NCBI RefSeq assembly: GCF_004153455.1 | Contig: NZ_SDQE01000009.1 | Span: 1-64,000 of the forward strand | Direction: 5' to 3' | From: Allopusillimonas ginsengisoli | GTDB lineage: Bacteria > Pseudomonadota > Gammaproteobacteria > Burkholderiales > Burkholderiaceae_B | Length of the DNA stretch: 64,000 nt | Part shown: positions 43,750 through 62,807 of the stretch, piece after piece | Position numbering within the stretch: the stretch's first letter is position 1 | How the letters are laid out: the number at the start of each line of letters is the position of its first letter | Made by a program: the position numbers and the translations under genes | Notes under the pieces: model-generated | Seen by the model: only the letters and a program-made list of their open reading frames with translations | What the model was told of the DNA's origin: nothing | Database searches by the model: none

Positions 43750-44439
43750 ATGCGCATTCTGATCGCTGAGGACGACAGTATTCTTGCTGATGGACTTTCC
43801 CGTTCGTTACGATACGACGGCTATGCCGTCGACGTTGTGAACGACGGATCAAGCGCCGACTCCGCCCTCAAGCTGCAAAGCTTCGACCTCCTGATCCTAG
43901 ACCTGGACTTACCGCTGATGCACGGCCTGTCGGTATTGCGCCAGCTGCGTCACCGAAACACCCCTATCCCGGTATTGATTCTAACGGCAGCCGACTCGGT
44001 CGAGCAACGCGTCAAGGGCCTGGATCTTGGCGCCGACGACTACATGGCCAAGCCTTTTGCCCTGTCCGAACTCGAGGCGCGAGTGCGTGCCCTGACACGC
44101 CGCAGCGCCGGGCGCTCAAGTACGCTGCTCACCTACAAGCGCCTGAGCTTCGACCTTAATGGACGCATTGCCTGTATCGACGGGCAGCCTCTGGATCTGT
44201 CTGCCCGGGAAACCGAGCTGCTCGAAATCCTGCTGTCCCGTTGCGGGCGGATGATCAGCAAGAATCAGTTTGTCGACTTGTTGTGCGAATGGGGCGAAGA
44301 GGTCACGCCCAACGCCATCGAGGTCTACATCCACCGCCTGCGCAAAAAAATCGAACCCAGCGGTGCCAAGATCGTTACCGTGCGTGGACTGGGCTATTGC
44401 CTGGAACCCGAAAGCCGCAACGAATCGGTGGCAGCCTGA
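43750..44439 (+). CDS. OmpR-family response regulator, TctD/QseB-like
   Basis: This 229-residue regulator has a receiver domain (MRILIAEDDSILADGLSRSL, phosphorylated Asp in LLILDLDLPLMHGLSVL, Lys in GADDYMAKPF) and a C-terminal winged helix (DLSARETELLEILLSRCGRM, NAIEVYIHRLRKKIEPSGAK). The frame from 43702 adds 16 residues before the family's usual start, so ATG 43750 is used. The kinase gene follows 14 bp downstream. Confidence 0.92.
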   Translation: MRILIAEDDSILADGLSRSLRYDGYAVDVVNDGSSADSALKLQSFDLLILDLDLPLMHGLSVLRQLRHRNTPIPVLILTAADSVEQRVKGLDLGADDYMAKPFALSELEARVRALTRRSAGRSSTLLTYKRLSFDLNGRIACIDGQPLDLSARETELLEILLSRCGRMISKNQFVDLLCEWGEEVTPNAIEVYIHRLRKKIEPSGAKIVTVRGLGYCLEPESRNESVAA

Positions 44440-44453
44440 CGCGCCCGGTACAT

Positions 44454-45935
44454 ATGCTGATCGACCCGCGCATCCTGGAGGAAACCGCCGACCAGGCTGC
44501 GGGCAAGGTGCGCTGGTTCAGCAAGCAAAGGCGCCGCAAGCACAACGGCGCCTTGCTGAACAAAATCATCATCTGGATGTTCGGCCCCTTGTTCCTGCTG
44601 TGGACTATCGGCCTGGTCATTACTTACTTCATCGCGCAGAACATCGCGGACGCGCCCTACGACCGGGCGCTGTCAGACCATCTTCGCATGCTGCGGCACG
44701 AGGTAGAGCAACAATCCATTTTGTCTGGACTGCAGCTTTCGCCCTCTGCCATCACTATCCTGCAAGGCGACCCCGGCCACTTCATACATTGGGAAATTCG
44801 TGACGCCAACGGAAACTCCCTGGCCGGGAATCGCGATATTCCGTTGCCGGATAACTGGACCTATGAGCGGGATCAGATTCGCATGCGCAACGAAACGCTG
44901 GAGGGGCACAGCATCCGGGTGGCCTATATCTGGGGTGGCCGCGATGCGACCGGCATGCCGTTTCTGACGGTCGTCGCCCAGTCCAACGAAATGCGGGCAA
45001 CCCTGCAGCAGGAAATTCTGACAGGAATGCTGACGCCTCAACTGATTGTGCTGCCGCTCGCCGCCCTGTTGGCCGGGCTGGGGCTGACACAGGGCCTGGA
45101 GCCTTTGAGCATCCTGCAAGAGCGAATACGCGCGCGGCGCGCCAATGACACTTCTCCCATCAGCGCAGAGCTTGCGCCGGCCGAAATCGTTCCGTTGATT
45201 GCCGCCATGAACAGCCTGCTGGCGCGGCTGGCGGCGGCCAATGACGCCCAGCGACGGTTCGTCGCCAACGCTGCGCATCAATTGAAGACGCCTCTGGCCG
45301 GCATGCGCACCCAAGCCGAATTGGCGCTGCGTGAAAATGCGCCTGAAAAAATGGACGACAGCCTGAAGCAACTGGTGCGCGGCTCCGAACGCGCAACGCG
45401 ACTCGTCAACCAATTGCTCGCACTGGCCCGGGCCGAGAGCCCCGATACGCCAGTACAGGGCAATATGATGGATGTCGACCTCAATGACCTGGCTGAAACC
45501 CAGACGGCGCAATGGGTGCAGTCAGCGCTGGATAAACAGATAGACCTTGGCGTTGAGCGCTCACCCTTTGATATCCACATAGACGGCAACCGCCTGATGC
45601 TGGCCGAACTGCTGAACAACTTGATCGAAAACGCGATTCTTTACAGCCCTGAACACGGCCGGATCACGGTACGCGTGGGAGGCGATCCGCTATCCGCCTA
45701 CCTGGAGGTTCAGGATTCCGGGCCCGGCATTCCCCTTGCGGAGCAACAGCGTGTCTTTGATCGTTTTTACAGAATGCTCGGAACAGACAGCGACGGCAGC
45801 GGGCTGGGACTTTCGATCGTCAAGGAAATAGCCGATCTGCACAAAGCCAGCCTCGCGTTTATGCCGACCAACCAAGGCACATGTCTGCGCATAGTTTTCA
45901 GCCAGATCGACGGAATCAAACGGCAATGGGCTTAA
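44454..45935 (+). CDS. Sensor histidine kinase, TctE-like
   Basis: This 493-residue membrane kinase has two helices (ALLNKIIIWMFGPLFLLWTI and about residues 190-210) around a periplasmic TctE-type sensor domain. The H-box reads RFVANAAHQLKTPLAGMRTQ, and N, G1 and G2 boxes follow (LLNNLIENAILYSPEHGRIT, DSGPGIP, GSGLGLSIVKEIA). The frame extends far upstream to 44241 as a shadow of the regulator. Relatives sense carboxylates, and the next gene encodes a transporter, so control of that transporter is a reasonable inference. Confidence 0.9.
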   Translation: MLIDPRILEETADQAAGKVRWFSKQRRRKHNGALLNKIIIWMFGPLFLLWTIGLVITYFIAQNIADAPYDRALSDHLRMLRHEVEQQSILSGLQLSPSAITILQGDPGHFIHWEIRDANGNSLAGNRDIPLPDNWTYERDQIRMRNETLEGHSIRVAYIWGGRDATGMPFLTVVAQSNEMRATLQQEILTGMLTPQLIVLPLAALLAGLGLTQGLEPLSILQERIRARRANDTSPISAELAPAEIVPLIAAMNSLLARLAAANDAQRRFVANAAHQLKTPLAGMRTQAELALRENAPEKMDDSLKQLVRGSERATRLVNQLLALARAESPDTPVQGNMMDVDLNDLAETQTAQWVQSALDKQIDLGVERSPFDIHIDGNRLMLAELLNNLIENAILYSPEHGRITVRVGGDPLSAYLEVQDSGPGIPLAEQQRVFDRFYRMLGTDSDGSGLGLSIVKEIADLHKASLAFMPTNQGTCLRIVFSQIDGIKRQWA

Positions 45936-46008: not shown

Positions 46009-47706
46009 ATGAGTGCCATTATCTCCCCCGTTCCCGGCGACAACCCTCATACGGGTGCCCCGGACGCAACCAACCGTCCCATGACGCCGGAGGAGCGCCG
46101 GGTCGTTTTTGCCTCATCGCTGGGAACGGTATTCGAATGGTATGACTTTTATCTTTACGGCTCGCTCGCCGCCGTCGTTGCCGCCCATTTTTTCTCGGGC
46201 GTCAATCCCACGGCAGGGTTTGTTTTTGCCCTGCTCGCCTTTGCTGCGGGATTTGCCGTCCGCCCGTTCGGCGCCCTGATATTCGGTCGACTGGGCGATA
46301 TGGTTGGCCGCAAATATACTTTTCTCATCACCATACTGATCATGGGCATGTCCACCTTTCTGGTGGGCGTGCTGCCTTCCTACGCGTCGATCGGTATTGC
46401 CGCCCCGGTGATTCTGGTGGTCTTGCGCCTGCTTCAGGGGCTGGCCCTGGGCGGCGAATATGGCGGCGCGGCAACTTATGTGGCCGAGCACGCGCCCCAG
46501 AACCGCCGCGGATTCTACACCAGCTGGATACAAACGACCGCCACCATGGGGTTGTTCCTGTCGCTGATTGTCGTGCTCGGATTTCGTGTCACCTTAGGAG
46601 AGGAAGCATTCCTGAAATGGGGCTGGCGGCTGCCCTTTTTGATCTCCTCCGTTCTGTTGCTGATCTCTGTATGGATACGGATGAGGCTCAATGAATCGCC
46701 TGCCTTTCGTAAAATGAAAGAAGAAGGCGCAGGATCAAAAGCCCCCATTACGGAGTCATTCGGCAAATGGGGAAACCTAAAAATCGTACTGCTGGCCTTA
46801 TTCGGACTGGCCGCGGGACAAGCAGTGGTCTGGTACACCGGGCAGTTCTACGCGCTTTTCTTCCTGACCAAAACCCTTGCCATTGAACCCAATACAGCCA
46901 ACATCATGATAGGGCTGGCCTTATTGCTGGGCACCCCGTTCTTTGTCGTGTTCGGCGCGCTGTCCGATCGTATCGGCCGCAAACCCATCATCATGACCGG
47001 TTGCCTGCTCGCTGCGCTGTCATATTTCCCGGCGTTCAAGGCCATCACTCACTTTGCCAACCCGGCGCTGGAAACCGCATTGGCCAACGCCCCCGTTACC
47101 GTCATCGCCGACCCCGCGACCTGCTCGTTCCAGTTCAACCCGGTAGGCACCACATCCTTCACCAGTTCCTGTGACATCCTGAAAGCTTTCATGGCCAGCA
47201 ATGCCGTCAATTACAACAACCAGGCCGCGCCGCCAGGTACGGTTGCACGCGCCAAAATCGGTGAGCATGAGTTCGAGTCATTCGAAGGGCAAAACCTGAA
47301 CAGAGCGGCATTCTCCGCCCGCTCTACCGAACTGACGCGCTCGTTGACTGACGCCATCCGCAGCCACGGCTATCCAGCCCGGGCCGATCCCAGCCAGATC
47401 AACTACATCATGGTGGTATTGCTGCTGACCTTTCTGGTGATACTTGTCACGATGGTATATGGGCCTATCGCAGCCATGCTGGTGGAGATGTTCCCGACCC
47501 GGATACGCTATACGTCAATGAGCCTGCCCTATCACATCGGCAATGGATGGTTCGGAGGCTTTTTGCCGCCAGCGGCCTTTGCCATCGTTGCAGCAACAGG
47601 CAATATCTATCATGGACTGTGGTATCCCATCGCCATTGCTGCCCTGACATTCGTCGTCGGCTGCCTGTTCGTCAAAGAAACACATAACAACAACATTAAC
47701 GCCTAG
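46009..47706 (+). CDS. MFS transporter, metabolite:H+ symporter (MHS) family
   Basis: This 565-residue inner-membrane symporter has GTVFEWYDFYLYGSLAAVVA, FAVRPFGALIFGRLGDMVGR and LQGLALGGEYGGAATYVAEH, the standard MHS signatures shared by citrate, 2-oxoglutarate, shikimate and proline/betaine carriers. Between the helices near residues 350 and 465 is an insert of about 110 residues with two cysteines (DPATCSFQF; TSSCDILKAF), longer than usual for the family. GGAGG precedes the ATG. Substrate not assignable. Confidence 0.88.
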   Translation: MSAIISPVPGDNPHTGAPDATNRPMTPEERRVVFASSLGTVFEWYDFYLYGSLAAVVAAHFFSGVNPTAGFVFALLAFAAGFAVRPFGALIFGRLGDMVGRKYTFLITILIMGMSTFLVGVLPSYASIGIAAPVILVVLRLLQGLALGGEYGGAATYVAEHAPQNRRGFYTSWIQTTATMGLFLSLIVVLGFRVTLGEEAFLKWGWRLPFLISSVLLLISVWIRMRLNESPAFRKMKEEGAGSKAPITESFGKWGNLKIVLLALFGLAAGQAVVWYTGQFYALFFLTKTLAIEPNTANIMIGLALLLGTPFFVVFGALSDRIGRKPIIMTGCLLAALSYFPAFKAITHFANPALETALANAPVTVIADPATCSFQFNPVGTTSFTSSCDILKAFMASNAVNYNNQAAPPGTVARAKIGEHEFESFEGQNLNRAAFSARSTELTRSLTDAIRSHGYPARADPSQINYIMVVLLLTFLVILVTMVYGPIAAMLVEMFPTRIRYTSMSLPYHIGNGWFGGFLPPAAFAIVAATGNIYHGLWYPIAIAALTFVVGCLFVKETHNNNINA

Positions 47707-47739
47707 GCAGGTCCGAATTCAGGCGAACGTCAGTGTGGG

Positions 47740-47915
47740 TCTATAGAATTAATCTCATAGAAAGGGCTTCCGTACGGTGCTTGACGTCTGATCCCCCGGT
47801 CAGCTCCAGGCGGTTCTTTTTATCACCTGTATTGCGCCCCCCGCGAGCCTTTTAGCGCAACACAGCGTGCTCCTCTGATGGCCCGGTGCTTCGGCATTCC
47901 GGGCCATTTTTTTTT
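47740..47915 (+). ncRNA. Candidate small RNA with two C-rich loops, upstream of rdgC
   Basis: The gap between the MFS gene and rdgC lacks an ORF but is highly structured. Stem-loop 1 (47785-47812) exposes CCCCC. Stem-loop 2 (47824-47869: CAC-CTGT-TTGCGC paired with GCGCAA-ACAG-GTG) exposes CCCCCCG. A strong terminator with nine T follows. TATAGAAT at about 47739-47746 could be the -10 element. The C-rich loops and the long U tail resemble Hfq-type sRNAs that pair with ribosome binding sites. It could instead be the 3' UTR of the transporter gene. I cannot match it to a known RNA family. Confidence 0.5.
47878..47915 (+). terminator. Strong rho-independent terminator
   Basis: ATGGCCCGG (47878-47886) pairs perfectly with CCGGGCCAT (47899-47907) around a 12-nt loop and runs into nine T. 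It lies 172 bp after the MFS stop and about 100 bp before rdgC. Confidence 0.9.
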
Positions 47916-48012: not shown

Positions 48013-48915
48013 ATGTGGTTCAAAAATCTCCGGATCTATCGCCTGTCTCCCTCCTGGAACTGCTCCCTGGACACGCTTGAAGACGCACTGTCCAAGCAGG
48101 CCTTCAAGCCTAGTGGCAGCCGCGACATGCAAAGCCTGGGCTGGACGGCGCCCCGAGAAGACAGCGGCCTGGTCTATGCGCTGGACGGACAGTACCTGCT
48201 CAATCTGCGCGCTGACAAAAAGCTGTTGCCTACGACCGTCATCAATCAGGTTGCCAAGGCCAAAGCCCAGGAAATCGAAGAGCAGCAAGGCTTCAAGCCT
48301 GGTCGCAAGCAAATGAAGGAGATCAAGGAGCAAGTGACGGACGAGTTGTTGCCCAAGGCCTTCAGTATTTACCGCGACACCCGTGTTTGGCTGGATACAC
48401 GCAATCACTGGCTGGTGATTGATGCGGCCGCGGCGGCAAAAAGCGATGAGGTGCTGGGCCTGCTTGCCAAATCGCTGGAAACCTTCCCTGTCACGCCACT
48501 GCATGTAGAGCAATCCCCAGCGGCGGCCATGACAAACTGGCTCATCAGCGACGAGGCGCCCGCAACGTTTTCCATCGATCAGGACACTGAGCTGCGCTCT
48601 ACCAGCGATAGCGGCGCTGCGGTGCGCTATGTGCGCCAGACGGTCGAGATCGACGACGTGCGCAAGCACGTTCAAGCAGGCAAGCAGTGCACCCGCCTGG
48701 CTTTGACATGGGCCGACAGAGTGTCCTTTGTGCTGACGGAAAACCTGGAGATCAAACGTGTTGCGCCGCTTGATGTGCTCAAAGAAGGCCAGGACAGCGC
48801 ATCACATAATGAAGCGGAACAGTTCGATTCGGACTTTACCTTGATGACTGGCGAACTGAGCAAACTGATCAGCAGCCTGGTGGACGCGCTGGGCGGCGAG
48901 CGCAAGCCCGCCTGA
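48013..48915 (+). CDS. rdgC: Recombination-associated protein RdgC
   Basis: This 300-residue nucleoid-associated DNA-binding protein restrains RecA in known cases. [60 protein letters not shown] and [20 protein letters not shown] are family hallmarks. The frame from 47878 would start inside the terminator, so ATG 48013 is used. recA and recX are encoded about 5 kb away. Confidence 0.93.
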
Positions 48916-62249: not shown

Positions 62250-62627
62250 TTACGCGCCCATTCTCATTACCGCCATTGCCAATCCCATACCAGCAATCGA
62301 ACACAGGACCGATACGAGCACATATGCCGCCGCATAAATAAACTGCCCCCGATGCATCAGCGTCATGGCTTCCAGGGAAAATGCCGAAAACGTCGTGAAT
62401 CCCCCGAGCACACCGGTCGCCAGAAACAACTGAAACTGACGTGACATCCCGCCCTTTTGCGCCACATATTCGACTAGGACACCCATGAGGATAGACCCGA
62501 TGATATTGATCGACATGGTTCCGTATGGAAAACCTCCCAGACTCGCCAGTCTTGCGAAGGCAGTATTCATGGCATGGCGCGCCATGCCGCCAATTCCGGC
62601 GCCCAGAAAAACAAGTAGATACCCCAT
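62250..62627 (-). CDS. crcB: Fluoride exporter CrcB/Fluc
   Basis: This 125-residue four-helix membrane protein forms a dimeric fluoride channel. GAGIGGMARHAMNTAF, the GTMSINIIGSILMGVL segment with the conserved Asn, and GVLGGFTTFSAFSLEAM with the TTFS motif are diagnostic. The frame to 62762 runs through the riboswitch and is not coding there. A fluoride riboswitch lies just upstream. Confidence 0.94.
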   Translation of the reverse strand: MGYLLVFLGAGIGGMARHAMNTAFARLASLGGFPYGTMSINIIGSILMGVLVEYVAQKGGMSRQFQLFLATGVLGGFTTFSAFSLEAMTLMHRGQFIYAAAYVLVSVLCSIAGMGLAMAVMRMGA

Positions 62628-62715
62628 CAGGCCCTCATGCCATGGTTGACAGGCGTTGCCGAACAAAATATCGGCAGGCAAAGGCCGCAGCTTTCCGCAG
62701 ACGCCGTCATCTGTC

Positions 62716-62768
62716 AAATAGGAGTCATCAGCCAGCATGGCGGTTATGTGGAGGAACCCCATCTCCGC
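62716..62768 (-). promoter_or_regulatory. Fluoride riboswitch (crcB motif)
   Basis: The minus strand reads GGAGATGGGGTTCCTCC, then ATAACCGCC, then GGCTGATGACTCCTA. These are the conserved blocks of the fluoride aptamer, including the pseudoknot partners and the terminal CUGAUGACUCCUA. It lies about 90 bp before the crcB ATG, which it is expected to turn on when fluoride is bound. Confidence 0.92.
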
Positions 62769-62807
62769 ATGTCAGTTTACTCTCGCACAGCGCTAAAAGC
62801 TCTGGCC

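Follow-up and report, generated by a model that had tools for sequence, protein, structure and literature searches.

As judged by comparison with its homologues, the gap between an MFS transporter gene and rdgC encodes a conserved structured RNA at 47756-47915 of the window (the whole 64,000-nucleotide stretch of DNA analysed here). Its status as an RNA gene is well supported, and that of a regulator-driven, Hfq-type pairing RNA moderately so. We favour, as reasonably probable, a stand-alone sRNA gene with cytosine-rich loops that represents a new family, is Hfq-type and base-pairing, and would be driven by a regulator of the OmpR/TctD type. There is no plausible protein gene in the gap (MFS end 47706, rdgC start 48013) whose sole mechanical ORF, from 47878, extends the rdgC frame upstream; here, our findings agree with a previous sequence-only reading of the same DNA. 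The RNA unit probably starts at about 47756, with promoter elements from 47718, further upstream than that reading had placed it. The parts of the locus and its neighbours are as follows.

43750..44439, plus strand: OmpR-family response regulator, TctD-like, candidate activator (PF00072, PF00486)
44457..45935, plus strand: partner sensor histidine kinase (PF08521, PF00512, PF02518)
46009..47706, plus strand: MFS transporter, metabolite/H+ symporter type, upstream neighbour (PF00083 and PF07690 above cut-off)
47718..47733, plus strand: direct repeat resembling an operator, TTCAGG-N5-GTCAG, two half-sites with 11-bp spacing
47744..47749, plus strand: predicted -10 element TAGAAT (TAGACT in Bordetella-type homologues)
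47756..47915, plus strand: predicted sRNA of about 160 nt, its start placed according to the -10 box and to where pairing in hairpin 1 begins
47757..47823, plus strand: hairpin 1, 67 nt, outer stem 47757-47767 / 47813-47823, inner stem 47780-47785 / 47799-47804
47786..47798, plus strand: hairpin 1 loop GUCUGAUCCCCCG, 13 nt, kept in the core group
47829..47863, plus strand: hairpin 2, stem 47829-47837 / 47855-47863
47839..47846, plus strand: loop 2 octamer CCCCGCGA, near-invariant in 60 homologues, proposed seed
47864..47879, plus strand: linker with GUGCUCCUC, pyrimidine-rich, anti-SD-like
47880..47915, plus strand: intrinsic terminator, stem 47880-47886 / 47899-47905 plus nine T
48013..48915, plus strand: rdgC, downstream neighbour (PF04381, 398 bits)

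The response regulator and sensor kinase pair are the genes just upstream of the transporter. Some of these names stay at the level of likeness, since the top NCBIfam match of the regulator, TctD, scores 236 bits (cut-off 337) and the MFS gene reaches 359 bits against TIGR00883, under that model's cut-off of 443.

Distribution, covariation and fold

A search at the DNA level picked up related sequence in 9 of 41 genomes, the window's own among them, and gave matches in 43 of 268 genomes of the family, some of these matches proving spurious when inspected. A covariance model (R1), built with the window sequence included and matching the window at 47753-47915 with 153.7 bits, found the RNA in 133 of the 268, with one match each and in 25 of 43 genera (123 of the 222 good-quality family genomes). 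From the order, 399 sampled genomes yielded nine matches with R1. The only one from outside the family (L108 in G623, 35 bits) has neither promoter box nor octamer, and the same is true on inspection of a match within the family (L107 in G232). Thus, no credible copy was seen with R1 outside the family among the 399 genomes sampled from the order. These two doubtful matches are still included in the counts 133/268 and 9/399 and in the sets of 40 and 73 loci used below, and all R1 searches, whose scope is the family and the sampled order, ran with strict filters that lose weak matches. When loci were anchored on RdgC instead, the sRNA was present at 37 of 80 rdgC loci, the carriers being Allopusillimonas, Pollutimonas, Candidimonas, Paralcaligenes, Pusillimonas, Castellaniella, Mesopusillimonas and Bordetella ansorpii. 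Advenella gave weak matches among these loci, and there was no match within the up to 3 kb covered on each side of rdgC in Alcaligenes, Paenalcaligenes, Herminiimonas or Noviherbaspirillum. Two genomes, those of Pusillimonas noertemannii (L129/L132) and strain CGII-56 (L115/L141), have two rdgC loci with the sRNA at one only.

Covariation was scored on a 33-pair structure in two alignments, one of 27 homologues (A1) and one of 60 distinct sequences (A3). In A1, 89.7% of cells are paired and compensatory change is seen in 23 of 33 pairs, with 104 double-change cells as opposed to 33.5 (sd 5.8) after shuffling and 16-36 in slid controls. The corresponding values for A3, which was fitted to R1 so that its counts lean towards the model, are 89.6%, 30 of 33 pairs and 393 double-change cells versus 133 shuffled and 47-99 slid. 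Both counts exceed every shuffle and all slid controls. Excluded from A3 were the doubtful L107 (G232, family) and L108 (G623, outside family), short or weak matches (L095, L099, L109, L200-L204), the Advenella loci L157/L158 (25-26 bits; repeat present) and loci duplicating an included genome.

Helix by helix (60 homologues), each of the 17 pairs of hairpin 1 has both its bases changed in one homologue or more, the two stems of this hairpin being paired in 83.2% and 82.6% of cells; hairpin 2 shows compensatory change in 9 of 9 pairs (95.4% of cells paired); and the terminator stem, 96.6% paired, is followed by a U run of at least five in 60/60 distinct homologues (median 7). A partner swap is visible by eye in Bordetella-type homologues, where CTCAGA/TCTGA replaces the outer stem ATAGAA/TTTTAT. 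The sequence-only reading had made its proposal depend on stems being conserved in relatives, and the stems are indeed kept and carry compensatory changes. RNAalifold alone, applied to A1, recovers hairpin 2 and the terminator but not hairpin 1, which is evident from single folds and from comparison arm by arm. The sRNA (47756-47915 of the window) has three hairpins in all: hairpin 1, hairpin 2 and the terminator.

The beyond-chance signal comes from this covariation rather than from single-sequence folding or generic scans. The 176 nt that the sequence-only reading had described as holding stable hairpins do fold better than 200 of 200 dinucleotide shuffles (-62.4 versus -48.5 kcal/mol, z -3.45), yet the claim is weaker for the individual elements, with z -1.41 for hairpin 1 alone and -2.30 for hairpin 2 alone, and a generic terminator scan found one terminator versus 0.6 (sd 0.7) in shuffles. 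As had been stated, the gap contains a run of CCCCC at 47793-47797, one of CCCCCC at 47837-47842, and a terminator stem with nine T after it (47907-47915). As to hairpin 1, its conserved form is the 67-nt hairpin with GUCUGAUCCCCCG as its loop and not a small local TGATCCCCCGGTCA hairpin.

Within the loops, conservation is greatest in the octamer CCCCGCGA, seven positions of which are identical in 60/60 homologues and one in 57/60, while the stems vary. A GAUCCCC-type motif in loop 1 is present in 47 of the 60 and missing in 13, for example in homologues from Pusillimonas caeni, Pusillimonas noertemannii and Yanghanlia, all of which keep the octamer. In the linker, GTG (47867-47869) is conserved in 50/60, 57/60 and 58/60. 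Both motifs are predicted to be mostly open (mean unpaired probability 0.85 for loop 1 in 47 homologues and 0.84 for loop 2 in 60), with the window's own copies reaching just 0.45 and 0.56 because an alternative pairing competes. Here, 47761-47769 in the 5' arm of hairpin 1 can pair with 47845-47853 in the 3' half of loop 2, a possible alternative fold of the window's sequence. In three Pigmentiphaga homologues the loop 1 motif is mostly paired (predicted openness 0.03-0.22).

Promoter, shared operator and proposed mode of action

Upstream of the RNA lies a conserved promoter layout, TTCAGG-N5-[GT]TCAG followed after 10 or 11 nt by TAGAAT or TAGACT in most homologues, and we infer that transcription runs from the -10 box at 47744..47749. 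Repeat and -10 box occur together at 64 of 73 loci (a set that counts a few genomes twice), and the spacing of 10 or 11 nt holds in all 57 distinct sites. The loci without the combined motif are L095, L107, L108, L157, L158 and L200-L203; of these, L157 and L158 do show the repeat, as do L200-L203 at a greater distance upstream. The pattern occurs once in the window's own genome and leads to the sRNA locus in 9 of 10 genomes searched, with two other sites in total; a generic sigma-70 scan at the locus found no promoter (shuffles 0.5).

A strict form of the repeat, [GT]TCAG-N6-[GT]TCAG, is also found ahead of MFS at 29 of the 51 loci with that gene. Across 67 loci, which are homologous and not independent (1.29 million strand-bases), the counts were 49 at sRNA promoters (47/55 loci), 35 ahead of MFS and 12 in other places, and five of these 12 are, on inspection, sRNA promoters that the position rule leaves out. 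A further 12 loci (Pigmentiphaga, two genomes without R1 match, and G116) include 9 with four tandem half-sites before MFS. Direct repeats spaced by 11 bp are typical operators of OmpR/PhoB-family regulators. With the repeat being common to the sRNA promoter and to MFS (29/51), an OmpR-type regulator probably drives both. Tandem 11-bp half-sites of the form (G/T)T(C/A)AG, two to four in number, were seen before MFS in L246-L250, L254-L257 and L083-L090, where they stand, operator-like, beside a TctD-like two-component pair; to our knowledge, such an array before this gene has not been described.

The sequence-only reading had found the placement of the RNA unexplained by either neighbour. In many relatives the operator pattern shared with the transporter offers a partial explanation; in the window itself it does not, as no box is seen before its own MFS gene. 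More generally, the strict box is absent before MFS in 22 of 51 loci, and Alcaligenes and Castellaniella have none there. Nor does such a box precede the regulator gene in 43 rows examined (8 being second copies of a genome), and the idea that the response regulator controls its own gene by way of the box was dropped. As for control by the adjacent regulator alone, in 15 of the 133 sRNA genomes the search for this MFS at E 1e-150 found nothing (four of these genomes fall below 90% completeness), and what comes closest to the regulator there is a paralogue of 45-52% identity or, in G250, nothing at 1e-40; this weakens the case for sole control. Since 14 of the 15 keep the box with at best a paralogue as regulator match, the adjacent regulator cannot be the sole factor.

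How might the RNA act? To our minds, an OmpR/TctD-type regulator may bind the 11-bp-spaced repeat by the -10 box and thereby switch on the ~160-nt RNA, which would fold into a pair of C-loop hairpins followed by a pyrimidine-rich linker and the terminator; the regulator step is drawn from the shared, conserved operator and the folded structure from covariation. The U tail would then recruit Hfq, and the loop seeds, above all CCCCGCGA, could base-pair with G-rich parts of target mRNAs, probably close to where the ribosome binds, so as to lower translation of the targets alongside induction of the neighbouring transporter. Consistent with this, hfq was found in 6/6 genomes examined, and its presence together with the long U tail fits Hfq dependence of the candidate sRNA.

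Searches for targets did not bear out the suggestion of the sequence-only reading that the C-rich loops aim at Shine-Dalgarno sequences: in six genomes, complements of loop 2 before ATG number 33, exactly as for the reversed control pattern (33). For loop 1 the figures are 21 versus 1, but nothing can be concluded from them since the control contains CTAG, a rare tetranucleotide. No orthologous target recurs among 51 of 54 loop-complement sites examined (six genomes, two simple patterns), the sole recurrence among the 51 being one match that lies within a long open frame and is shared by two genomes. Initiator tRNA was considered as a partner as well, the 5' end of tRNA-Met (CGCGGGG) being complementary to seven loop bases in 6/6 genomes; the preceding AGA leaves this 7-nt match unextended, and so we treat it as coincidence.

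An independent sRNA could alternatively work by titration, as a sponge that binds a protein or RNA via CCCCGCGA rather than by blocking ribosome-binding sites. One near-invariant octamer in a large loop whose stems vary suggests a single fixed partner, and complements are not enriched before ATG codons. Against this, several open C/U-rich segments together with U tail and hfq make up the usual layout of a pairing sRNA, and the sole fixed partner tested, initiator tRNA, matches over 7 nt only with a leader that does not extend the match. We consider titration unlikely, albeit worth keeping in mind. Quite improbable, to our minds, is the more specific option that the RNA forms the RNA arm of an OmpR/TctD-type transporter regulon in which the CCCCGCGA loop has one fixed protein or stable-RNA partner; if true, it would be a titrating or signalling kind of RNA so far undescribed in the family. 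The covariance model, the near-invariant loop and the shared operator make regulator and partner directly testable.

Independence from transporter and rdgC

The proposal of an independent sRNA, put forward by the sequence-only reading, holds up well: there are compensatory changes in every helix, the promoter layout is conserved and the RNA is kept without its neighbours. When 40 loci were inspected for as much as 6 kb on either side, with some contigs cut short and the doubtful L107 and L108 included, 27 proved to carry MFS as well as rdgC, 8 rdgC only, 2 MFS only and 3 neither; the sRNA is hence kept without one or both within 6 kb in 13 of 40. These include L081 and L104, which have no rdgC within that distance, and the Pigmentiphaga loci L101 and L102, which have neither neighbour within it. 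In G134, G135, G137 and G138, moreover, the sRNA lies on the strand opposite to the MFS gene. On account of this retention without neighbours, and of the inversion in four genomes, the sRNA counts neither as a 3' UTR nor as a leader of rdgC.

That it might be no more than a 3' UTR or terminator belonging to the transporter mRNA is a notion to which the window itself lends some colour, the RNA lying on the same strand about 50 nt downstream with a terminator that could also end the MFS transcript. We regard it as very unlikely in view of the sRNA's own conserved promoter layout, its retention in the 8 of 40 loci with rdgC but no MFS (some contigs being cut), the 15 of 133 sRNA genomes without MFS at the above threshold, and the four genomes with inverted orientation. 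Still less credible is a cis-acting leader or attenuator of rdgC, even though, at 36 of the 37 sRNA-bearing rdgC loci (a set chosen by rdgC), the RNA sits no more than 0.7 kb upstream of that gene and on its strand, as a strong terminator ends the RNA before the rdgC start, rdgC is not within 6 kb in L081, L104, L101 and L102, and the orientation is opposite in L083. A small peptide has next to no chance: closed frames reach 44 codons in single homologues and 24 in the window, but the length of the longest frame varies erratically between 0 and 44 codons, with several of the 60 homologues having no frame, and loop indels are not multiples of three.

Some loci have features of their own. At L083 (G135), the sRNA is opposite in orientation to rdgC as well as to the transporter gene. 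In Pigmentiphaga, with MFS and rdgC not within 6 kb, it adjoins a tRNA gene (L101 5822-5895, L102 6227-6300). In the Bordetella-type G116, an opposite-strand ORF (L190 2382-2855, minus strand) stands between sRNA and rdgC, a CoA-transferase-like ORF is the upstream neighbour of the sRNA, and MFS is found about 10 kb upstream.

Relation to known RNAs

No sRNA family of Rfam matches at its gathering score, either at the locus in the window or at 12 homologue loci. Two families, ncS54 (RF02871) and the Betaproteobacteria toxic small RNA (RF02278), resemble the 3' part of the sRNA in their linker and G+C-rich terminator; membership can be dismissed for both, the locus scoring 15.9 bits against a gathering score of 43 for the former and 14.3 against 50 for the latter. 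The window's only Rfam match at threshold is a fluoride riboswitch (RF01734, 54.6 bits, 62712-62775, minus strand). It stands, as is ordinary, at the start of an ORF (62250-62762, minus strand) that is CrcB-like in its sequence features.

The cuckoo RNAs of alphaproteobacteria, to which the sequence-only reading had likened the RNA, are small RNAs with cytosine-rich hairpin loops too, defined by the loop motif CCUCCUCCC and often present in repeated copies. The likeness is loose, and kinship can be set aside on both counts: the loops here are GAUCCCCC and CCCCGCGAG, not of the CCUCC or CCUCCUCCC type, and each of the 133 genomes has one match instead of several copies.

Turning to the literature, a text search, with supplements and most subscription journals outside its scope, found no paper on an sRNA at an rdgC-adjacent locus, and among papers joining rdgC with Bordetella pertussis none is on an sRNA, as judged by title. 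A 2011 B. pertussis sRNA table gives flanking genes by number only, and no entry in the part available could be mapped with certainty to the rdgC-adjacent locus (PMC3110155); nor do the accessible portions of PMC8386462 and PMC6321483 have anything on it. Since supplementary tables were outside the search, the RNA may already be present, unnamed, in published candidate lists.

What is described elsewhere does include betaproteobacterial sRNAs of a related kind. The Neisseria sibling sRNAs, which according to the available description steer metabolism, share with ours, by description alone, that they are betaproteobacterial sRNAs (PMC5362039). Closer in their proposed way of working are S17/CT_433 and CT_521 of B. 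pertussis, for which the sections available report C/U-rich segments complementary to Shine-Dalgarno-like motifs of targets, direct interaction of S17 with Hfq, and positions between a glycosyltransferase gene and coq7 (S17/CT_433) or between bp3747 and rpoH (CT_521) (PMC11722255, PMC12235514). As far as these accounts go, they are set apart from the new sRNA by locus and described features: their conserved C/U-rich segment lies upstream of the terminator, whereas here the octamer occupies an internal hairpin loop, and the locus of S17/CT_433 differs from one in which MFS and rdgC are both near the sRNA in 27 of 40 cases. Half of 268 genomes of a family that includes Bordetella carry a single-copy RNA below every Rfam threshold, and transporter and sRNA form a linked pair with the same regulatory repeat. 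In comparison with these systems, the RNA is a previously uncatalogued family of a known kind of sRNA.
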